Shown in pieces: positions 37,912 through 46,955 of a stretch of 64,000 nucleotides of DNA (within the stretch, counting starts at the first letter, position 1; each line of letters opens with the position of its first letter). The stretch covers positions 12,000-75,999 of the forward strand of contig JAVKGX010000009.1 in assembly GCA_031432545.1 (NCBI GenBank). The letters run 5' to 3'. The notes below the pieces were generated by a model that saw only the letters and a program-made list of their open reading frames with translations, was not told where the DNA came from and made no database searches. The position numbers and the translations under genes are program-made. Source of the DNA: Armatimonadota bacterium. Its GTDB lineage: Bacteria; Sysuimicrobiota; Sysuimicrobiia; Sysuimicrobiales; Sysuimicrobiaceae.

Positions 37912-38877
37912 TCAGTGGCGGCGCGCGACGACGAACTCGGTGAGGGCGGCCAGGCTGTCGCGGGCGGCGCTGGGCGGAAAGCGAGCCAGCACGTCGAGGG
38001 CGCGCTCGGCGTGCTGGCGGGCGACGTCCAGGGCGTAGGCGATCGAGCCGTGGCGGCCCAGGATCTCGCGCACAGCGTCTGCGGCTGCACCGTCCCGGAT
38101 CAGGGCCTCCAGGCGCGCCCGATCGTCGGGCGTCCCGCTGCGCAGGGCGTGGATCAGCGGAAGGGTGACCTTTCCGCCCCGGACGTCGCTGCCGATCGGC
38201 TTGCCCAACACCTCGGGGTTACTGGTGAGATCCAGTGTGTCGTCGGTGATCTGGAACGCCACGCCCCAGTGCCTCCCGAATGTCTCCAGGCAGGCGGCCG
38301 TGTGCGCGTCGGCACCGGCGACCGCCGCTCCGCCGGCGCAGGCGGAGGCGATCAGCTGCGCCGTCTTGCCCTCGACGATCGTGAAGTAGACCTGCTCGTC
38401 GGTGTGCGGCGTGTTGCCGTAGCGGATCTGCAACAGTTCCGCCTGGCTCATGCGCACCGTAGCCAGCGCCATGCGCGGGGCGACGTCGGCGCGCCTCACG
38501 CGGGCCAGCATGTGGAAGGCCTTGCTGAACAGGTAGTCGCCCAGCAGCACCGCGACGTGGTTGCCCCACCGCGCGTTGGGCGTCGACTGCCCGCGGCGAC
38601 GGTCGGCTTCGTCGATGACGTCGTCGTGGATCAGTGAGGCGACGTGGATCAGCTCAACCGCACCGGCGACCAGGCGGCGGTCGTCGCCGGCCCCACCCAC
38701 GATCTGCGCGCACAAAAACACCAGGGCCGGCCGCACCATCTTGCCGCGCGTCTGCAACACGTGGGCCACAAGCTCCGCCAGGAAGGGCTCGCCCGCCGTC
38801 AACTCGTCCCGGAGCAGTCCGTGCAGATCGTCTAGGTCACGGCGGATGGGCGCGTAGGCGGCGACCAGGGGATCCAT
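37912..38877 (-). CDS. Polyprenyl diphosphate synthase
   Basis: A 321-residue trans-prenyltransferase. First aspartate-rich motif DDVID at 85-89 (LIHDDVIDEADRRRG), second motif ITDDTLDLTSN, basic GKMVRP and GGKVTLPL. Small residues precede the first motif, as in medium/long-chain (C35-C40) enzymes of the HepT/IspB type. It follows the respiratory cluster by 10 bp, so it probably makes the menaquinone or other quinone side chain used by that complex. Confidence 0.92.
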   Translation of the reverse strand: MDPLVAAYAPIRRDLDDLHGLLRDELTAGEPFLAELVAHVLQTRGKMVRPALVFLCAQIVGGAGDDRRLVAGAVELIHVASLIHDDVIDEADRRRGQSTPNARWGNHVAVLLGDYLFSKAFHMLARVRRADVAPRMALATVRMSQAELLQIRYGNTPHTDEQVYFTIVEGKTAQLIASACAGGAAVAGADAHTAACLETFGRHWGVAFQITDDTLDLTSNPEVLGKPIGSDVRGGKVTLPLIHALRSGTPDDRARLEALIRDGAAADAVREILGRHGSIAYALDVARQHAERALDVLARFPPSAARDSLAALTEFVVARRH

Positions 38878-38887
38878 CCCGTCTCAT

Positions 38888-39451
38888 CTAGGGACTCTGT
38901 CTGCCCAGGCGCTTCAGGTACTCGACCAGCGCCCACACCTGCTCGTCGGAAAGTGCCGCGAACGCCGGCATCCCGCTCCGGCGGGGTGTGGTGCCCAGAC
39001 CGTGCCGGATGACCCAGTGGCTGACCCCGCGGGGGGTTTCCAGGAACGCGGGGCTGTGGAAGCTCATCGGCGGCGGGTTGAGCGTCGCGCCGGCCGGGCC
39101 GTCGCCGCGTCCGGTCGGACCGTGGCAGACGGCGCACAGCGCCCGGTACTGACTCTCCGCGTCTGCGAGCATCGCCTCGGTGATCTCTGTGGGCGGCTCA
39201 TCGTCGCGCGCGTCCGCCGGCACCACCTCGACGATCGCGCGCATCTGATCCGCGTGCGGATCCTCCGCCACACCCGGCGCCCTCGAGACGCCCGGAATCT
39301 GGCGGGCAACGGGGCTGACCTCCGGCGCCACGAGTCCGCCGGCCACGAACAGGTACGCCGCCGCCCACACCGGCAGCAGGACGTACAGCACCAGCAGACC
39401 GCGCGGTGGGCGGTGGCCGGAAGGTTGCGTAGGAGGCGTGGGTTCTGCCAT
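38888..39451 (-). CDS. Membrane-anchored monoheme cytochrome c
   Basis: A 187-residue protein with one N-terminal membrane helix (LLVLYVLLPVWAAAYLFVAGG) and a C-terminal cytochrome c domain with the heme site CAVCH at 106-110 and a Met in GMPAFAALSDEQVW as the likely sixth ligand. It faces outside. It is the last electron carrier gene of the respiratory cluster and lies 6 bases from the CcoO-like gene, so it may be the exit or entry c-type carrier of that complex, in the place of CcoP. Confidence 0.92.
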   Translation of the reverse strand: MAEPTPPTQPSGHRPPRGLLVLYVLLPVWAAAYLFVAGGLVAPEVSPVARQIPGVSRAPGVAEDPHADQMRAIVEVVPADARDDEPPTEITEAMLADAESQYRALCAVCHGPTGRGDGPAGATLNPPPMSFHSPAFLETPRGVSHWVIRHGLGTTPRRSGMPAFAALSDEQVWALVEYLKRLGRQSP

Positions 39452-39457
39452 GTCAGT

Positions 39458-39925
39458 TCACTTCAGACTCAACAGGTAGGCCGCCAGCACGCGCAGTTCT
39501 TCGTCCGAGAGGTGCGCGTAGGACGGCATTCGCGACCCAGGCGTTCGCTCGGAGGGAGCGCGCAGCAGCGCGATGATCTCCTGGGCCCCCTCGATGCGCG
39601 CGCCCACCCGCAGCAGGTCCGGCCCCACGCGCCGCCCGCCCAGCAGGGCGGGGGTCTGTCCGGCGTAGGCGGCGAAGTCCGCCGCCTGTCCGATGTCGCC
39701 GGGTTCGGCGATCATCCCGAACCTCGACTCGATCGTGCGCACCTGCTGGGTGTGGCAGACCATGCAGTTCTCCCGCACGTAGACGGCCCTGCCGGCTTCC
39801 TGCTCCCGAGTCAGGGCGGGCCCCGGAGCGGCCGGTCCGACGGAGGGCAGGGCGACCGTGGCCACAAACCCGCTGACCGTGGCCACCACGGCGAACAGCA
39901 CGATCGGGCGGACGCTCAGCTGCAC
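39458..39925 (-). CDS. CcoO/FixO-like monoheme cytochrome c
   Basis: A 155-residue protein with a membrane anchor (residues 8-27) and a cytochrome c domain. GRAVYVRENCMVCHTQQVR has the heme site C54-x-x-C-H58 followed by the TQQVR typical of CcoO, the monoheme subunit of cbb3 oxidases; GSRMPSYAHLSDEEL carries the axial Met. It is shorter than CcoO (about 200). GTG at 39925 follows GGGGGAG. It pairs with the next gene upstream, a subunit I homologue that has lost its heme ligands, so it cannot be serving a normal oxidase here. Confidence 0.88.
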   Translation of the reverse strand: MQLSVRPIVLFAVVATVSGFVATVALPSVGPAAPGPALTREQEAGRAVYVRENCMVCHTQQVRTIESRFGMIAEPGDIGQAADFAAYAGQTPALLGGRRVGPDLLRVGARIEGAQEIIALLRAPSERTPGSRMPSYAHLSDEELRVLAAYLLSLK

Positions 39926-39947
39926 AGGCGCTCCCCCGCGCGCACCG

Positions 39948-41363
39948 TCATGTACCCGCCTCCCCCACCAGCCTCGCCTGCGCCGGCGGGGACAGGTCGC
40001 GCTCGGCAGCCGACGCCGGTTCGCCGGAATCCACGGTCAAAAAGACGTTCCAGGCGAACAGTGCCTGCCCGGTGAGGAGCAGACCGGCCGAGACCGCGTA
40101 CACGACGAGAAACGGCGAGACCGCCGCGGCTCCGTGGGCGAAGGGTACGGTGCCCGTCGCCCACACCGCTCCCTGACTCAGTCCGGCGAAAAGCAGCGTC
40201 AACCCGCCGACCGCCCACCCCGCCACCGTCGATCCCACCTGCCACCACGCCAGGGTGCGACTCGCCAGCGCCCGGCCGACGAGGGAGGGCAGCATCGCGT
40301 ACGCCGCCCCCACGGCGATCGAGAGAATCCCGCCGAGCCACAACAACCGTTGACCCTCGACCCACAGCGTCAGGTTCACCACCCGACTGGGGCCCAAGAG
40401 GCCGTGGACCGCACCGACCGACGCTGAGCCGGCCAGCGCGAACGCCCCCACGGTGAACAGCATCAGCGTCGGGCTGGCGCAGGCGGCCGTCCACCTGCCC
40501 CCCACCGTCGTCCACACCACCACGAGCAACGTCGCGGCGGGCAGGACCAGCAGCAGCGACGCGACAGCCCCGACGGTCTGCGTCCAGAACGGAACCGGCC
40601 CCCACACGAACGCGGCGGGCCCGGCGAGCGGGGCGAACGCGAGGATGCCCAGCAGCGCCGCGGCCGGCAGCGCGGCCGCGAAGACCGCGCGGCCCGCGGC
40701 CACGGGGACCAAGGCCACCAGGACACCGCCGGACAATATGCCCAGCCACAGCCAGTTCAGACCCGACTGCAAGAACGCCTGCGCCAGCGCGTCCGGCACA
40801 CCGGCGTACGGATTGGCAAACGGCGAGAACAGACCCTTTCCGAGCAACAGCACCAGCGGGAAGGCCACCAGTGCGCTGGCGAAGTACCAGGCCGGCGGCT
40901 CCACGGCCGCCGCGCTCACCGTCCGCCACACCACCCACAGCAGCAGCAACCCGGCCACCACCCGCAGCAGGTCGGCCGGCCACGGCGCCTCGCCGAACGC
41001 GCGCCCGCGGGTCCAGCCCACGGTCAGGTACCACCACGCGAGCACCTGCGCGACGGTCCACAGCCAGAAAGCGAGGTTGGCGGTCCTCTCCCCCCACAGG
41101 TGTCCGCGCGCGGACTGGGGCGCCAGCCTCAGGACCGCGGCGATCAGCAGGTGCGAGCAGGCACCGAAGATCCACACGTCGCGGCTGACCGCGACCAGCC
41201 GACCGTGGGACGACCAGGCACTGCCCGCCAAAAAGCCCGGCCAGGCCAGCTGCGCGGCGATCAACAGTTCGTAGATTGCGCCCACCAACGCCCAGGCCGT
41301 GCCGAGGTAGGCGAACCGGCGGGCGGCGCTCCACTGTTCGTCGCTCAACATCCACGCGAGCAA
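39948..41363 (-). CDS. Heme-copper oxidase subunit I (CcoN-like) homologue lacking all metal ligands
   Basis: A 471-residue membrane protein with about 12 helices. TTG at 41363 follows GGAGGGG. Homology to CcoN is visible along the length: GRLVAVSRDVWIFG for GRLRPLHTxAVIFG, WPADLLRVV, YAGVPDALAQAF, PVPFWTQTVGAVASL and LTLWVEGQRLLWLGG for the T-D-W-T-I-G-H-V-H region. At each ligand site the His is replaced: low-spin heme (Ser60), Cu/heme helix VI (around Ser200), the HH pair (Ala250-Ala251), and the final H-x-H (Gln338, Leu340). Only five His exist (53, 71, 88, 320, 410). It cannot bind the hemes or copper in the known way; a structural or proton-channel role is inferred. Confidence 0.8.
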   Translation of the reverse strand: MLAWMLSDEQWSAARRFAYLGTAWALVGAIYELLIAAQLAWPGFLAGSAWSSHGRLVAVSRDVWIFGACSHLLIAAVLRLAPQSARGHLWGERTANLAFWLWTVAQVLAWWYLTVGWTRGRAFGEAPWPADLLRVVAGLLLLWVVWRTVSAAAVEPPAWYFASALVAFPLVLLLGKGLFSPFANPYAGVPDALAQAFLQSGLNWLWLGILSGGVLVALVPVAAGRAVFAAALPAAALLGILAFAPLAGPAAFVWGPVPFWTQTVGAVASLLLVLPAATLLVVVWTTVGGRWTAACASPTLMLFTVGAFALAGSASVGAVHGLLGPSRVVNLTLWVEGQRLLWLGGILSIAVGAAYAMLPSLVGRALASRTLAWWQVGSTVAGWAVGGLTLLFAGLSQGAVWATGTVPFAHGAAAVSPFLVVYAVSAGLLLTGQALFAWNVFLTVDSGEPASAAERDLSPPAQARLVGEAGT

Positions 41364-41422
41364 GCGACCCCTCCGCGGGACGGCCAGCCTGCACCGCCCC
41401 TACGACCGCGCGCCGCCGTCGC

Positions 41423-41542
41423 TCATGCCTCCGCGACCAGACCGAAGGCGGCCACGAACAGCAGCAGCGCGAAGAACAGCAGGTAGAAGACTGCGTACCA
41501 GATATAGGACTTCAGCTTCCGGGGCCCGAACCGCCCGATCAC
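41423..41542 (-). CDS. 39-residue single-helix membrane protein of the respiratory cluster
   Basis: GTG at 41542 overlaps the stop of the MvhD-like gene (GTGA) and follows GGAGGAG. The product is a basic N-terminus (IGRFGPRKLKSY) and one membrane helix (WYAVFYLLFFALLLFVAAFG). This shape and the coupling suggest a small stabilising subunit, comparable to the tiny subunits of cytochrome bc/b6f and cbb3 complexes. Confidence 0.7.
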   Translation of the reverse strand: MIGRFGPRKLKSYIWYAVFYLLFFALLLFVAAFGLVAEA

Positions 41543-41982
41543 TTCTTCTCCTCCGCCCAGATCCGCAGGACCTCCTCCCGGAACGACCGCACCGCGTCGA
41601 TGAACTCCCTGCGGTCGTGCAGTCCGTAGGCCAAGAACCCGATGCGCGCGGGGTTCACCTTCTGCCGCTGCAACCGCTTGCGCAGCGCCTCGATGCGATC
41701 CTCGATGATCCAGTTGCCCTCGCGGTTCAGACAGTCGCCCATCGGGCACCCGCACACGAACGTACCGGCAGCGCCGCTGCGAAGTGCCAGCTCCAGCCAC
41801 GCCGGCTTGACGAAGCCCGAGCAAGGCACGCGGATGAGCACGACGTCCGGGAGGGTGACCATGGTGCCGTCCGGGTTCAGCAGGCCTTCGCTGCTGACCG
41901 CCCAGTCGCACAGGAACCCGACCACGCGGCCGGCCGGTTGGCTCTTGGACTTGTCCTGCACCACAGGCTCGACGCTGTCCAT
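41539..41982 (-). CDS. MvhD/FlpD-like iron-sulfur electron transfer protein
   Basis: A 147-residue protein of the MvhD/FrhD/FlpD (hydrogenase delta subunit) family, which carries a [2Fe-2S] cluster between hydrogenase or formate dehydrogenase and HdrA. ATG at 41982 follows GAGGTGAGG. Family features: VVGFLCDW, VVLIRVPCSGFVKPAWLELA, and GTFVCGCPMGDCLNREGN. Cys at 25, 54, 77, 79 and 84 remain; the second Cys of the usual N-terminal C-x-x-C is replaced (CDWA). No hydrogenase or Hdr gene is present; instead it follows a cytochrome b-ferredoxin fusion by 7 bases, so it probably takes or gives electrons at the ferredoxin domain on the cytoplasmic side. Confidence 0.85.
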   Translation of the reverse strand: MDSVEPVVQDKSKSQPAGRVVGFLCDWAVSSEGLLNPDGTMVTLPDVVLIRVPCSGFVKPAWLELALRSGAAGTFVCGCPMGDCLNREGNWIIEDRIEALRKRLQRQKVNPARIGFLAYGLHDRREFIDAVRSFREEVLRIWAEEKK

Positions 41983-41989
41983 CCTCACC

Positions 41990-43165
41990 TCACGCCGTGA
42001 CCGCCGCCCCGGCGCCGGCACGGATCTGTGCCTGCACGTCCCGTTCGAGCAGGCGCGGCAGCTCCAGCGCCTCGAAGGGACAAGCGCCGATGCAGATCCC
42101 GCACTCCACGCAGCGCGGATCCACGACCACGGCCAGCAGCTTGCGGTTCGCCGCGGCCTTGCTCTTGCCCGGGTACGGGCTGGGCACCATGTAGATCGCG
42201 TTGTACGGACAGTCGAAGTAGCACAGCTCGCAGCCGGTGCAGTTCTCGTCGACGACCACCGCCTGTCCCAACCCGCGCAGCCCGCGCTCTTGGGGCGTCT
42301 CGCGCAGGGAATACGGGATGTACATTCCGTACGCCACGAGCGCGGCGACCAGCGCGAGCGCCCACCCCGGCGCGATCCATCGCGCCAGCACGTAGGGCCA
42401 CAGGTAGAACCAGTCGACCTCGAAGCCTTCGGGCGTCGCCCCCGGCTGCGCCGGCGGCCCGCTCGCCGCGGGAATCGCTGCGGCCAGCACGAAGATCAAC
42501 CCGATCCCGAACAAGACCCACAGCGCCGGCGGCCAGACCTTCGGGTGGCGCAGCCGCACGTAGTGCCACCACAGGAGGATGTACAGCGTCATCGCCGGCG
42601 CGATGTGCAGGAAGAGGAACCGCACGATCGTCGCATCGCTCAGCCCCGGTCCACCCAAAAACGCGTGCGCCAGCCAGCCGCCGATCAGCGGTACGCTCTG
42701 CAGTGCCTGCACCGTCATGCTCGTCAGCAACTGGGAGCGCTGATCCCACACCAGCAGATATCCGGTAACGCCCGCGATGCCCGAGAACACCAGCAGCACC
42801 ATCCCCGACAACCACTGGCTGTCGCGCGCTTCGCGGTAGCGGTCCGTAAACCAGTTCCGGAACAGGTGCAACAACACGGCCACGATGTACGCGTCGGCTG
42901 CGTACCGGTGGATGCCGCGGAAAATTACCCCGTAGGGCACCTGGTCCGAGAGGAACTGCACCGAGGCGTACGCGCCTTCCAGGCTGGGCTCGTAGTACAG
43001 CCAAATCAGGATCCCGGAGACGACCAGGACGGTCAGGAACAGGTTGCTCAGCCCGCCCGTATAGTACAGGGGGTTGAAGTCCTGCGGGTATACGCGGTTG
43101 ATCGCCACGTCCACTTTGAGCGTGGCGCTCTGGATCCTCTGCAGCAGCGGCCGGTACACCGTCAC
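41990..43165 (-). CDS. Cytochrome b fused to a 2x[4Fe-4S] ferredoxin domain
   Basis: A 391-residue fusion. GTG at 43165 overlaps the preceding stop (GTGA). Residues 30-210 form the cytochrome b (b6-like) four-helix core with all four heme ligands: His86 and His100 (GIHRYAADAYIVAVLLH), His187 and His201 (LHIAPAMTLYILLWWH). A subunit-IV-like part has DWFYLWPYVLAR where Qo motif PEWY is usual. Residues 300-370 form a bacterial-type ferredoxin: C309-x2-C-x2-C-x3-C319-P and C352-x2-C-x2-C-x3-C362-P. The topology puts the clusters on the cytoplasmic side, next to heme bH. It is a paralogue of the cytochrome b encoded at 43619-44773. Confidence 0.92.
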   Translation of the reverse strand: MTVYRPLLQRIQSATLKVDVAINRVYPQDFNPLYYTGGLSNLFLTVLVVSGILIWLYYEPSLEGAYASVQFLSDQVPYGVIFRGIHRYAADAYIVAVLLHLFRNWFTDRYREARDSQWLSGMVLLVFSGIAGVTGYLLVWDQRSQLLTSMTVQALQSVPLIGGWLAHAFLGGPGLSDATIVRFLFLHIAPAMTLYILLWWHYVRLRHPKVWPPALWVLFGIGLIFVLAAAIPAASGPPAQPGATPEGFEVDWFYLWPYVLARWIAPGWALALVAALVAYGMYIPYSLRETPQERGLRGLGQAVVVDENCTGCELCYFDCPYNAIYMVPSPYPGKSKAAANRKLLAVVVDPRCVECGICIGACPFEALELPRLLERDVQAQIRAGAGAAVTA

Positions 43166-43362
43166 TCCTCGGCCGTGATGTGTGCCTTCCGGAACAGCAG
43201 CACGACGAACGAGTAGATGATGAGCAGCACGCCCAGCGCGCCGGCGCCGACCCGGCGGTGGTCGAACCACTCGCCGTAGACGATCAGTGCCACGCACAGC
43301 AGCGCCGCCATCGCCAGCAGGACGATGAGCGCCATGTACACGACCGCGCGTGAGCGTTCCAC
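43162..43362 (-). CDS. Small two-helix membrane protein of the respiratory cluster (a)
   Basis: A 66-residue protein with two hydrophobic helices (VVYMALIVLLAMAALLCVAL and AGALGVLLIIYSFVVLLF) and short charged ends. The stop overlaps the start of the cytochrome b-ferredoxin gene. It resembles no family I can name; it is probably an accessory subunit. Confidence 0.7.
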   Translation of the reverse strand: MERSRAVVYMALIVLLAMAALLCVALIVYGEWFDHRRVGAGALGVLLIIYSFVVLLFRKAHITAEE

Positions 43363-43365
43363 GGC

Positions 43366-43614
43366 CTATGACCCTCTACCCAGGAATCTCTCGTACAGTC
43401 GCAGGCGGCGGCGCAACTTCCCAGCAGCCCGATCCGTTGCGTAGATCAAGAAGCCCGCGTACAGGAACGCCCCGACGAGCAGCGCGGTCCACCCGACTGC
43501 CGCGGCCCACGCGACCGCGGTCTGCACCGCCACCGCCTCACTGTAGGCGCCGAACACCTGCTTGAACGCCACGACCGCGGCTGCAAACGCCATGACGAAC
43601 ATCACGCCGCGCAC
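43366..43614 (-). CDS. Small two-helix membrane protein of the respiratory cluster (b)
   Basis: An 82-residue protein with two hydrophobic helices and a basic C-terminal tail (RAAGKLRRRLRLYERFLG) that would be cytoplasmic. It starts at GTG 43614, with ATG 43602 possible, 4 bases after the cytochrome b stop and 3 bases before the next small gene. Unknown family, probably an accessory subunit of the same complex. Confidence 0.68.
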   Translation of the reverse strand: MRGVMFVMAFAAAVVAFKQVFGAYSEAVAVQTAVAWAAAVGWTALLVGAFLYAGFLIYATDRAAGKLRRRLRLYERFLGRGS

Positions 43615-43618
43615 CGCC

Positions 43619-44773
43619 CTACCCTGCCGTCGGCGCCGGCCGCGCCCCCACCACGCGGGGCGGCGGCTTCGGCGCCGCCGCTTCTGCCGCCCGCCGGCGG
43701 CGCCGGTACCGCAACTCGAGCAGCAATCCGATCACGAGCACCACGCTGGTCATCACCAGGACGATGTGCGGATCCCGGTCGATGACTGCGATGTTGAACA
43801 TGATCAGCGTTGTGAACACCACGAAGTACGTGAGGGCCATGACGCCGACCACCGTGAAGAAGGGGCGTTCGGACGGTCGGCGGCCCTTGCTGCGGTCGAG
43901 GAACGGGACGAGCATCCCGTAGGTGATGAGGAATCCCGGCCCCAGTCCGGCCCACAGCGGCGGGGTGTACTTCACGTACTGGTACAGCGCCAAGAAGTAC
44001 CAGTCCGACAGGATCGGCAGCGGCGTCCGGTTCGGGTCGGCGCGCCGGCCCATCTCGGCGGGGAAGATGTAGCTGGTGGCGACGATCATCAGCAGCAAGA
44101 CGACGATCGCCGTCGGCGAGAGCCCGAAGCGCTTGCGCCGAGTGAAGATGAAGTACAGTTCTACGGCGATCAGCAACAACGCGGAGATCCCGAAATGGAT
44201 CGCGTAAAAACGCGTCAGCGCCCCCTGCCCGACCGCCGGGCCGCCGAGGAAGATGAAGGCGATCGCGCTGCCGAACTTGCTCGCACCGATGATCGGAATT
44301 TGGTCTAGGTAGACCGCGACGCTGAGCACGGTCTTGGCTGCCCAGAACGCGCGCTGGTTCCAGATCAGCAGATAGCCCGTGATCCCGGAGATCATCGCCA
44401 GCACAAGGGACGCGAACAGGATCATCCACGTCAACTCGTTCGGGCGCTTGTACTCGCCGAGGAAGTACATGCGGTAGATCCGCAGCATGATCGCGAGGAT
44501 CAGCATATCTGCGGCGTACTTGTGGGCGCCCCGGATCAACCAGCCCAAAGGCACCTCATGCTGGATGCGCAGGATGGAGTTGTACGCGCCGTGGGTCGTC
44601 GGCTCGTACCAGATCATCAGCAAAACACCCGTGACGAAGACCACGATCCAGGAGAAGTAGACGATGTGGCCCAGCGCGTACAGCGGGTTGTCCAGCCGGT
44701 CGACGTTGGTCTCGTCGAAGAGGTCGAGCTTCTCCTTGCGCTCGCGCAGCCACTCCCGTACGCGGTCGAGCAT
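43619..44773 (-). CDS. Cytochrome b lacking the n-side heme ligands
   Basis: A 384-residue cytochrome b with about eight helices, fusing the b6-like and subunit-IV-like parts. ATG at 44773 overlaps the previous stop (TGATG). The first ligand of each pair is kept, His84 (RGAHKYAADM) and His193 (FYAIHFGIS). The second of each, 14 residues on, is replaced: Arg98 (IMLRIYR) and Tyr207 (VELYFIF). In known cytochrome b these two positions hold heme bH/bn, so only the p-side heme bL should bind. The Qo motif is LSDWYFLALYQ instead of PEWY. It is coupled to Rieske and diheme cytochrome c genes. Confidence 0.92.
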   Translation of the reverse strand: MLDRVREWLRERKEKLDLFDETNVDRLDNPLYALGHIVYFSWIVVFVTGVLLMIWYEPTTHGAYNSILRIQHEVPLGWLIRGAHKYAADMLILAIMLRIYRMYFLGEYKRPNELTWMILFASLVLAMISGITGYLLIWNQRAFWAAKTVLSVAVYLDQIPIIGASKFGSAIAFIFLGGPAVGQGALTRFYAIHFGISALLLIAVELYFIFTRRKRFGLSPTAIVVLLLMIVATSYIFPAEMGRRADPNRTPLPILSDWYFLALYQYVKYTPPLWAGLGPGFLITYGMLVPFLDRSKGRRPSERPFFTVVGVMALTYFVVFTTLIMFNIAVIDRDPHIVLVMTSVVLVIGLLLELRYRRRRRAAEAAAPKPPPRVVGARPAPTAG

Positions 44774-44874
44774 CAGGACGGCCTCGGCGCTTCGGGGTCG
44801 GGGGTCGTCGTCTGCGGGTCCGCCGCGCCGGCGTGAAGGCAAGCCACGAACCGCAGGCCCCAGCTCGGGGTCAT
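44773..44874 (-). CDS. 33-residue peptide between Rieske and cytochrome b
   Basis: A short frame whose ATG overlaps the Rieske stop (ATGA) and whose TGA overlaps the cytochrome b ATG (TGATG); GGAGGG lies 5 bases upstream. The product starts TPSWGLRFVACLHAGAAD and ends in a Thr/Pro-rich tail. The perfect coupling on both sides suggests it is translated, either as a tiny subunit or only to link translation of the two flanking genes. Confidence 0.4.
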   Translation of the reverse strand: MTPSWGLRFVACLHAGAADPQTTTPDPEAPRPS

Positions 44875-45527
44875 GCGATCCCTCCGGGCTCGGCGCTCGT
44901 GATCACGATAACGCCGTCGCGGATCTCGTAGGTGAAGTAGTACGGCGGCCGTGGCGCCGGGCCGGAGAGGACCCGTCCCGGTCGGTCGCGGTCCGCGGGG
45001 TCGTAGATTGACAGGTGGCAGGGGCACGCCATCAGCCCGTGGCGCCGCTCCTCCGGCGGGACGTACCCTCCGTAGCCCGCGGTGACCTCCCGCCAGTTGG
45101 GCACGTAGTTGAAGATGCAGCCCAGGTGCGGACAGATCCGGGAGAAGATGACGATGTCGGTGGGTTCTTCGCCCTGCTTGAACCCGGGGAAGCTGACCTT
45201 CCACGGCAGCCTGATGGCCACGCCGGGGATCGTCGCCACGCGCGCCTGCTCGGGCGTGTACTGCGCGTAGCGCTGCGTGTACACGAAGATTCGCGACGAC
45301 CACGGTTCGGCGAGCTCCTCCACGCGTCCCAACGCCAGCTGCTCCCCCTGCGGGAGATCCATCTCCGCGAGACTGCGCAGCCGACCTTCCGGCAGCCCCA
45401 GCCCGGGGTCGAGGTTCGGCTTGAGATAGCGCAGTAACGGCGCCGCGAATGCCGCCAGCGCACCGAGCACGGGGATCGCGCTTAGCGCGCGCAGGAACGT
45501 GCGGCGGTTCACTCCCCTCTCGGCCAT
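44871..45527 (-). CDS. Rieske [2Fe-2S] protein
   Basis: A 218-residue high-potential Rieske subunit. It has a Tat-type signal anchor (NRRTFLRALSAIPVLGALAA). The cluster ligands are C132-P-H134-L-G-C137 and C168-P-C170-H171; the second box reads CPCHLS rather than CPCHGS. It is the p-side electron acceptor from quinol, passing electrons to a cytochrome c. It lies between the diheme cytochrome c and the bL-only cytochrome b, showing that the cluster is a modified bc complex. ATG at 45527 follows GGAG. Confidence 0.95.
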   Translation of the reverse strand: MAERGVNRRTFLRALSAIPVLGALAAFAAPLLRYLKPNLDPGLGLPEGRLRSLAEMDLPQGEQLALGRVEELAEPWSSRIFVYTQRYAQYTPEQARVATIPGVAIRLPWKVSFPGFKQGEEPTDIVIFSRICPHLGCIFNYVPNWREVTAGYGGYVPPEERRHGLMACPCHLSIYDPADRDRPGRVLSGPAPRPPYYFTYEIRDGVIVITSAEPGGIA

Positions 45528-45543
45528 CGTGGCTGCTCCTGGC

Positions 45544-46404
45544 TCACCGCAGGTCTTCGGGAAGCGTGTAGACGAACGTCCACAGATAATCTACCACAGC
45601 CCAGATCTGGTCCGACGTCAGGCGATCTCCGTACGCAGGCATCAGCTCGATGCCACGGCGGTGCACGCCTTCGAACACCCGCTGGTAGAGCTCCGTCGGT
45701 TTGCGGTAGGCCATCCAGTCGCGGTCGGTGAAGATCCCGGGGCCCACGCCGCGACCCCACGTCCAGATCTCCTGGCGGATGCGAGCGGCCTCCGGACCGT
45801 TGCCGTCGCCGGATTCACCGTGGCAGGCGGCACACTGTTGCTGGTAGATGCGCCGACCCTCGGCGAGTTTGTCGCGCGTGGTCATGCGGCTCCACTCCCA
45901 GAACAGGACGTTCCAGATCTCTTGCTCGCTCAGCGGAGGGTCGGCGAGGCTGTCGGCGCCGTAGGCGGGGTGGCGGAAGCCCGGCATCGCGGTGTGCGGC
46001 CGACCGCGGTCGATCACCTCGAACATGGAAAAGGGCGTGTTGAGTCGCATCTGGTCGAGGTTGTCGAAGCGCGCAGGCCGGCTGGGAAGCGGTTCGCCCC
46101 TGGGGTGGATCCGGAAGATGCGCAGCACGTCCCGGTACGGGTCCTTCTCCGGGGCCACCAGCTGCGGCGCCATCGGTCCGTCGCCCCGGCCCTCGGGCCC
46201 GTGGCAGACGGCACAGCGCGCCTCGTAGACCCGCTTGCCTCCGTCGGCGTTGGGCTTTTGGGGAATGAAGTTCATCCGGTGGACGTAGCCGGCCAGCGGT
46301 TCGTAGGCGGGACGGTCGGGCGACCCGATCCGCACGTATGGCTGGCAGCCCACGAGCAACACCGACGTCGCCGCGATCAGCGCGGCGCCGGCAACTGGCC
46401 GCAT
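45544..46404 (-). CDS. Diheme cytochrome c lipoprotein
   Basis: A 286-residue lipoprotein (lipobox LLVGC, Cys20) with two cytochrome c domains: heme sites CAVCH at 64-68 and CAACH at 191-195, with Met in GRPHTAMPGF and IELMPAYGD as probable axial ligands. ATG at 46404 follows GGGAGG. It is anchored outside the membrane and is the first gene of the respiratory operon, so it probably replaces cytochrome c1 as acceptor from the Rieske protein. A 173-bp gap with a terminator separates it from the ccm genes. Confidence 0.92.
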   Translation of the reverse strand: MRPVAGAALIAATSVLLVGCQPYVRIGSPDRPAYEPLAGYVHRMNFIPQKPNADGGKRVYEARCAVCHGPEGRGDGPMAPQLVAPEKDPYRDVLRIFRIHPRGEPLPSRPARFDNLDQMRLNTPFSMFEVIDRGRPHTAMPGFRHPAYGADSLADPPLSEQEIWNVLFWEWSRMTTRDKLAEGRRIYQQQCAACHGESGDGNGPEAARIRQEIWTWGRGVGPGIFTDRDWMAYRKPTELYQRVFEGVHRRGIELMPAYGDRLTSDQIWAVVDYLWTFVYTLPEDLR

Positions 46405-46577: not shown

Positions 46578-46955
46578 CTACGTGTCCCGCTCGTACCGGG
46601 TCGGGCACTTCGCCAACAGCACCGTCGCGGCGAACACGCCGTCGCGGCGCAGCTGCCCCTCGACCACGACCTCCGCTTCGTCGGTGAACAGATCGGGCAC
46701 CGTGCCCTGGTAGACCACCGGCAGCGCGATGCCTTCGTCACGCAGCGTGAACCGGATGCGCGACCCCTCGCGGCGGATCGATCCTGAGGCCACCGTCCCC
46801 GCGACCCGAGAGGGGACGTCCACGGCCGCCTCTCCCCTCTCGAGCAACTCCCCGACGGTGACATAGTACACGGCCGCCGAACGCACCCCGCCGTAGATCA
46901 GGTACGCGAGCGCGGCGACGATCACGGTCACCAGGACGGCGTAGCGGCGGTTCAT
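46578..46955 (-). CDS. ccmE: Heme chaperone CcmE, Cys-type
   Basis: A 125-residue periplasmic heme chaperone with one N-terminal membrane helix and an OB-fold domain. In most CcmE the heme is bound covalently by His in H-x-x-x-Y; here the site is C117-P-T-R-Y121, the C-x-x-x-Y variant described for archaea and some bacteria with a variant System I that lacks CcmH. It is short after the motif (four residues). It serves the many c-type cytochromes of the neighbouring cluster. Confidence 0.93.
   Translation of the reverse strand: MNRRYAVLVTVIVAALAYLIYGGVRSAAVYYVTVGELLERGEAAVDVPSRVAGTVASGSIRREGSRIRFTLRDEGIALPVVYQGTVPDLFTDEAEVVVEGQLRRDGVFAATVLLAKCPTRYERDT

Follow-up and report, generated by a model that had tools for sequence, protein, structure and literature searches.

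A run of eleven co-directional genes was found on the minus strand, from position 46404 to 38888, of the 64,000-nucleotide stretch of contig JAVKGX010000009.1 (assembly GCA_031432545.1) analyzed here, which we call the window; the genes were assigned with a list of open reading frames (ORFs) and Pfam and NCBIfam profiles. They encode, in order, a diheme cytochrome c, a Rieske iron-sulfur protein, a cytochrome b (here cytb1), two small membrane proteins, a second cytochrome b with a ferredoxin domain (here cytb2-Fd), an FlpD/MvhD-like protein, a tiny membrane protein, a CcoN-like protein, a CcoO-like cytochrome c, and a further cytochrome c (Table 1). The source genome (2.19 Mb; estimated completeness, 100) groups with metagenome-assembled genomes (MAGs) of CSP1-3/Sysuimicrobiota. 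A preliminary description had named these gene families; all the genes are present on the minus strand, and the profiles confirmed the cytochrome, Rieske, ferredoxin-fusion, FlpD, and CcoN/CcoO families. It had counted eleven or twelve genes, of which eleven stand; the candidate twelfth, a 33-amino-acid ORF in the gap between the Rieske and cytb1 genes, is not conserved, and two related loci (L003 and L004) have only 12 bp there. Its reading of overlapping start and stop codons as fixed stoichiometry is replaced here by translational coupling, which is what such overlaps suggest. It also overlooked that cytb1 has lost its ligands for the high-potential heme bH, whereas cytb2-Fd has lost only the motifs of the quinol oxidation (Qo) site.

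With cytochrome b6 as the reference for ligand positions, both ligands of the low-potential heme bL (H84 and H193) are kept in 36 of 36 cytb1 sequences. The first bH ligand (b6 His100) is replaced by R98 in all 36, and the residue at position 207, equivalent to the second (b6 His202), is Y, F, L, M, or W in 35. E205 is invariant (36/36) and lies near the lost bH ligand, a place that would suit a salt bridge with R98. The Qo motifs of cytb1 are intact, with SDWY, of the PEWY type, in 36/36 and a conserved cd1 segment. The reverse holds for cytb2-Fd, in which the four heme histidines H86, H100, H187, and H201 are present in 40/40 sequences and also in that of L026, a locus in a MAG labelled Symbiobacterium (Symbiobacteriaceae), while the Qo motifs are degraded. 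All four histidines are kept by b6 and by 14 conventional cytochromes b from CSP1-3 and Actinomycetota used as controls, among which are those of loci L116 to L124.

The same reciprocity is seen in the conservation of whole segments. The mean top-residue fractions of the Qo segments cd1 and ef are 0.92 and 0.91 in cytb1 (domain mean, 0.76) and 0.62 and 0.57 in cytb2-Fd (domain mean, 0.70), making them the best conserved of the measured segments in the former and the least conserved in the latter. On the bH side, the corresponding fractions are 0.83 and 0.71 in cytb1 versus 0.87 and 0.85 in cytb2-Fd. The reciprocal contrast gave a P value of 0.009 by block permutation, with 4 of 260 rotations reaching it, and the Qo contrast taken alone gave a P value of 0.015; as the segments were picked from known bc1/b6f anatomy after the ligand loss had been seen, these values are supporting rather than decisive. 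From these sequence comparisons, cytb1 and cytb2-Fd look like reciprocally specialized, complementary halves of one asymmetric dimer. In a phylogenetic tree, each forms one clade (Shimodaira-Hasegawa-like approximate likelihood ratio test [SH-aLRT] support, 99 and 91, respectively), as for two parts inherited together.

In the Rieske protein, all six residues of the two-cysteine, two-histidine cluster site and the disulfide are present in 35/35 sequences, and the second ligand box, CPCH(L/F)S(I/V)Y, has its serine throughout and its tyrosine with one exception; this serine and tyrosine raise the redox potential of the cluster (PMC12954380). The Pfam Rieske match reaches only an E value of 0.007 because of the long insert between CPHLGC and CPCH. 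Rieske proteins of this cluster family fall below the Pfam cutoff, and the genome-wide search missed that of the window; automated annotation may overlook these insert-bearing proteins. The diheme cytochrome c has two heme motifs in all homologues found except one.

A cytoplasmic iron-sulfur arm is predicted for cytb2-Fd and FlpD. The structure model of cytb2-Fd has six membrane helices, which would place the ferredoxin domain on the side of the N terminus, i.e., in the cytoplasm, beside bH. Its eight cysteines are conserved in 39 to 40 of 40 sequences (one residue deviates in one sequence), and the four cysteines of FlpD are conserved in 41 homologues with one ambiguous residue. The two proteins match adjacent segments of HdrA2, the ferredoxin domain residues 572 to 639 and FlpD residues 645 to 775 of 777. 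In the cluster, the partner of this module is a cytochrome b, not the HdrA flavin domain, and neither HdrB/C nor MvhA/G is present. No HdrA flavin subunit or NiFe hydrogenase was found in the cluster (a genome-wide search for HdrA was not made), and none of the annotated cluster proteins is a cytoplasmic flavin NAD(P) oxidoreductase or other flavoprotein.

Single polypeptides of 643 to 716 amino acids that fuse a cytochrome b, two [4Fe-4S] sites, FlpD, and a further C-terminal domain were found without a Rieske protein in MAGs of Aquificaceae, Myxococcales, and Anaerolineae (L031:966-3017, L032:1057-3207, and L033:8986-10917), so the arm module exists by itself. They adjoin oxidase genes in the Aquificaceae and Anaerolineae MAGs and an SCO-like gene in the Myxococcales MAG (L032), and possibly constitute an undescribed family of their own.

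Of the 43 genomes of CSP1-3/Sysuimicrobiota, 41 gave a cytochrome b match of some kind, and 38 of these 41 contain cytb1 itself, in one case in two pieces and in a few truncated. Apart from loci interrupted by the end of a contig, essentially all CSP1-3 loci have the seven-gene core, consisting of the diheme cytochrome c, the Rieske protein, cytb1, the two small membrane proteins, cytb2-Fd, and FlpD, in an identical order and on one strand, a grouping far beyond chance. An additional, conventional cytochrome b locus with all four histidines occurs in some genomes of the phylum (L116 to L124), and two genomes of one genus (G008 and G009) have the conventional type only. Outside the phylum, the search for cytb1 covered 111 genomes of Deinococcota and 154 of the class to which L026 belongs. 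It was found in four Deinococcales MAGs and in L026 but in no other genome of either set; because the contigs were scanned with short patterns taken from the cytb2-Fd of the window itself, more remote members could have escaped notice. One further Deinococcota candidate (G130) was rejected, its cytochrome b being conventional. L026 and the Deinococcales loci L028 to L030 have a shorter core, Rieske-cytb1-small membrane protein-cytb2-Fd-FlpD. This patchy occurrence outside CSP1-3 suggests that the cluster was spread by horizontal transfer.

The CcoN-like, CcoO-like, and last cytochrome c genes are a clade-specific accessory module outside the conserved unit. The CcoN-like module is present in only 9 of the 43 genomes, and the mono-heme cytochrome c gene comes after the CcoN-like and CcoO-like genes in the loci of the same relatives. 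The module is homologous along its length to the CcoN and CcoO subunits of cbb3-type oxidases, in which the histidine ligands of heme b, heme b3, and CuB define CcoN; all of these are lost in the window's clade. In the window's protein, and likewise in its family, all six metal-ligand histidines and the active-site tyrosine are replaced, while the homologue in L018 retains two of the six histidines and that in L026 two histidines and the tyrosine. A decaying pseudogene is ruled out, as the gene is intact in all nine genomes with ratios of nonsynonymous to synonymous substitution (dN/dS) of 0.12 to 0.46, which indicate that purifying selection still acts on the ligand-free versions. Most likely, the module of the window's family descends from an oxidase, is catalytically dead, and persists as a docking or wiring platform at the cytochrome c side. 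In the Deinococcales loci, the run also encodes, upstream of the core, a CcoN that retains the tyrosine along with the six histidines, as well as a CcoO-like protein with two hemes (L028:2409-4786, L029:2279-4692, and L030:2361-4729); their sequences are consistent with a working oxidase, which may form one complex with the bc-like core.

Several claims of the preliminary description can be judged against these comparisons. Conservation of gene order in relatives, which it had offered as the test of its proposal, holds for the core, with FlpD included, and not for the CcoN-like module that it had counted as part of the unit. The CcoN homologue is indeed free of ligands, and the cluster lacks Hdr subunits and hydrogenases as described. 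The comparisons support its bc-like core and the cytoplasmic arm of iron-sulfur clusters and FlpD; bifurcation into a cytoplasmic low-potential carrier, which it mentioned, is no more than a possibility.

The genome's only cytochromes b are cytb1 and cytb2-Fd. The genome encodes complex I and a caa3-type oxidase and gave no match to NrfD, the membrane subunit of alternative complex III (ACIII). On these grounds the complex is the best candidate for complex III, and as the sole candidate in the genome it likely serves as quinol:cytochrome c reductase. A homodimer of cytb1 would strand electrons on bL; we infer instead a heterodimer of cytb1 and cytb2-Fd with obligatory transfer from bL to the bL of the partner (bL'). 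Taken together, the sequences make it probable that the cluster encodes the organism's complex III and that this is an obligate heterodimer of two specialized cytochromes b. Quinol would be oxidized at the Qo site of cytb1, with the first electron passing through the Rieske protein and the diheme cytochrome c to the caa3-type oxidase. The second electron would enter bL of cytb1; with no bH in that half, its path would lead across the dimer to bL' of cytb2-Fd and on to bH'. There it could reduce quinone on the n side in a half Q-cycle and/or pass into the [4Fe-4S] clusters, leaving by FlpD for a cytoplasmic acceptor. The window's family would have the ligand-free CcoN/CcoO/cytochrome c module as an addition at the cytochrome c side. 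A narrower version, in which all low-potential electrons of the cross-inactivated heterodimer pass by way of bL-bL', [4Fe-4S], and FlpD to a cytoplasmic acceptor in a quinol-driven bifurcation serving biosynthesis, seems to us doubtful.

Several observations weigh against the heterodimer with an electron-accepting arm. Position 207 of cytb1 is a histidine in L026 (1/36), and the aspartate at the PEWY position is still present in 39/40 cytb2-Fd sequences, which would allow a second Qo site. The bH-side contrast in conservation is not significant when taken alone (P = 0.12). The single-chain structure models, computed from 12-row alignments, are weak (predicted local distance difference test [pLDDT] scores of 62 and 66), too weak for measuring an R98-E205 contact. 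FlpD is without a known partner here. Finally, MqnA/D of the futalosine route to menaquinone, the one quinone route searched, had no match in the genome.

A stronger form of the heterodimer reading would send the second electron mainly through bH', [4Fe-4S], and FlpD to a cytoplasmic carrier for CO2 fixation (ferredoxin or NAD(P)+), along the lines proposed for the Rieske/cytochrome b complexes of anammox bacteria. Such bifurcation is attractive in that the cysteines of the arm are conserved throughout, the ferredoxin-FlpD module is collinear with the C terminus of HdrA2, the Rieske protein carries the potential-raising serine and tyrosine, and most CSP1-3 MAGs encode a sulfide:quinone reductase (109/112), several families having autotrophic pathways (PMC11604079). 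We nevertheless hold it to be rather less than probable, for the cluster supplies no cytoplasmic flavoprotein partner, its FlpD is the only one in the genome, and the genome also encodes complex I, which is able to run in reverse.

Electrons might instead flow inward through the arm. FlpD usually relays electrons from dehydrogenases or hydrogenases to a partner enzyme, and a cytoplasmic reductant could by this route reduce n-side quinone at cytb2-Fd and merge with the Q-cycle. The fused cytb-Fd-FlpD proteins, which stand beside oxidase-related genes without a Rieske protein, would agree with such an input. We consider it unlikely, however, since it would bypass the encoded, proton-pumping complex I, has no donor gene in the cluster, and by itself leaves the loss of bH from cytb1 unexplained. 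The same fused proteins, as an arm occurring alone in other phyla, would also accommodate two separate complexes, in which cytb1 and the Rieske protein use some other acceptor for bL and cytb2-Fd with FlpD forms an independent, homodimeric quinone oxidoreductase. This arrangement appears improbable; a cytb1 homodimer has no way to carry electrons off bL across the membrane, cytb1 adjoins cytb2-Fd in loci not cut by a contig end, and the two proteins specialize reciprocally.

Like the canonical bc1 and b6f complexes, the proposed heterodimer combines a Rieske protein and a c-type cytochrome with a cytochrome b that has bL ligands and a Qo site, and it likely acts as the only quinol:cytochrome c reductase. 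The two halves of the canonical complexes are identical, whereas here two distinct cytochromes b with reciprocal losses are accompanied by a ferredoxin domain and FlpD. Two bis-histidine b hemes per monomer, as in the definition of bc complexes, are found in cytb2-Fd, while cytb1 has the bL pair only, and in place of the single cytochrome b gene of the canonical homodimer, each cluster holds genes of two distinct clades. Judged from its predicted subunits, the complex would be bc-like in its working yet falls outside the canonical definition, and the cluster is a conserved and apparently undescribed variant of the Rieske/cytochrome b family. No description of it was found in the open-access literature searched (subscription journals were outside coverage), and neither cytochromes nor Rieske proteins are mentioned in the main text of the CSP1-3 genome paper (PMC11604079).

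One close precedent is an engineered enzyme. In Rhodobacter capsulatus bc1 with fused cytochromes b, one half carrying G158W and the other H212N, the cross-inactivated enzyme turns over in milliseconds through bL-bL transfer (PMC4330944). The logic is the same, with a Qo half lacking a working bH, a bH half lacking a working Qo site, and electrons forced from bL to bL; that enzyme was made by mutagenesis, whereas the window's version is natural, conserved across phyla, and equipped with a cytoplasmic iron-sulfur arm. In Kuenenia stuttgartiensis, the anammox complexes Kuste4569-4574 and Kustd1480-1485 have a cytoplasmic iron-sulfur extension that has been proposed to draw electrons from the low-potential branch (PMC12954380). 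They likewise contain a b6-type cytochrome b core, a Rieske protein with the potential-raising serine (serine and tyrosine in Kuste4569), and multiheme c-type cytochromes, but they are modelled with a homodimeric cytochrome b and a flavin NAD(P) oxidoreductase (PMC12954380). The window's cluster differs in its two unlike cytochromes b, one of them without bH, and in having a fused ferredoxin domain and FlpD but no flavoprotein. A low-potential output would parallel the anammox proposal and would fit the sulfide:quinone reductase and autotrophy of the phylum.

Crossing between the bL hemes of the bc1 halves in normal catalysis has so far been argued from engineered mutants. If the heterodimer reading is true, a natural enzyme with bL-bL transfer as the sole route from Qo to the n side would make this question directly testable and would be the natural counterpart of a lopsided enzyme so far obtained by engineering only. 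It would also identify complex III for a widespread uncultured phylum and, beside the anammox proposal, provide a second, structurally different coupling of quinol oxidation to cytoplasmic low-potential carriers.

Table 1. Genes of the cluster in transcriptional order, with positions in the window
Product	Position	Strand	Features
Diheme cytochrome c lipoprotein, likely cytochrome c1/f equivalent	45544..46404	-	Two CxxCH; Cytochrome_CBB3, E = 2.5e-22
Rieske [2Fe-2S] protein	44871..45527	-	~20-residue insert between ligand boxes; TIGR01416, E = 5.7e-9
cytb1, 8-helix cytochrome b	43619..44773	-	bL ligands and Qo motifs present; bH ligands lost
Small membrane protein 1	43366..43602	-	Possible alternative start at 43614; homologues at the equivalent position in CSP1-3, L026, and Deinococcales loci
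Small membrane protein 2	43162..43362	-	GTG start at 43362 or 43344; homologues in CSP1-3 loci
cytb2-Fd, 6-helix cytochrome b with C-terminal 2x[4Fe-4S] ferredoxin domain	41990..43165	-	Four heme His
FlpD/MvhD-like [2Fe-2S] protein	41539..41982	-	PF02662, E = 7.9e-23
Tiny single-helix membrane protein, 39 aa	41423..41542	-	Start overlaps FlpD stop; homologues beside FlpD in most CSP1-3 loci
CcoN-like protein without heme or copper ligands, accessory	39948..41363	-	COX1, E = 5e-24; TIGR00780, E = 3.3e-31
CcoO-like mono-heme cytochrome c, accessory	39458..39925	-	FixO, E = 1.1e-19; one CxxCH
Membrane-anchored mono-heme cytochrome c, accessory	38888..39451	-	Cytochrome_CBB3, E = 2e-11

The cytochrome b family assignment comes from a profile match with an E value of 1e-32. 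Intergenic gaps within the run range from -4 to about 97 bp, the start codon of cytb2-Fd overlaps the stop of the gene for small membrane protein 2, and no terminator-like sites were seen between genes anywhere in the run. Neighboring genes, named by eye from the sequence, are CcmE-like (46578-46955) and CcmC-like genes upstream of the cluster and, 10 bp downstream, a polyprenyl diphosphate synthase gene (37912-38877), which also follows the cluster in the CSP1-3 loci L009, L011, and L016. Just before the start of the window (L081; G000:C9:9450-10692), a COX1-family match is divided between two reading frames and directly preceded by a NorB-like stretch; together they resemble a quinol-dependent nitric oxide reductase gene with a frameshift or an assembly error.

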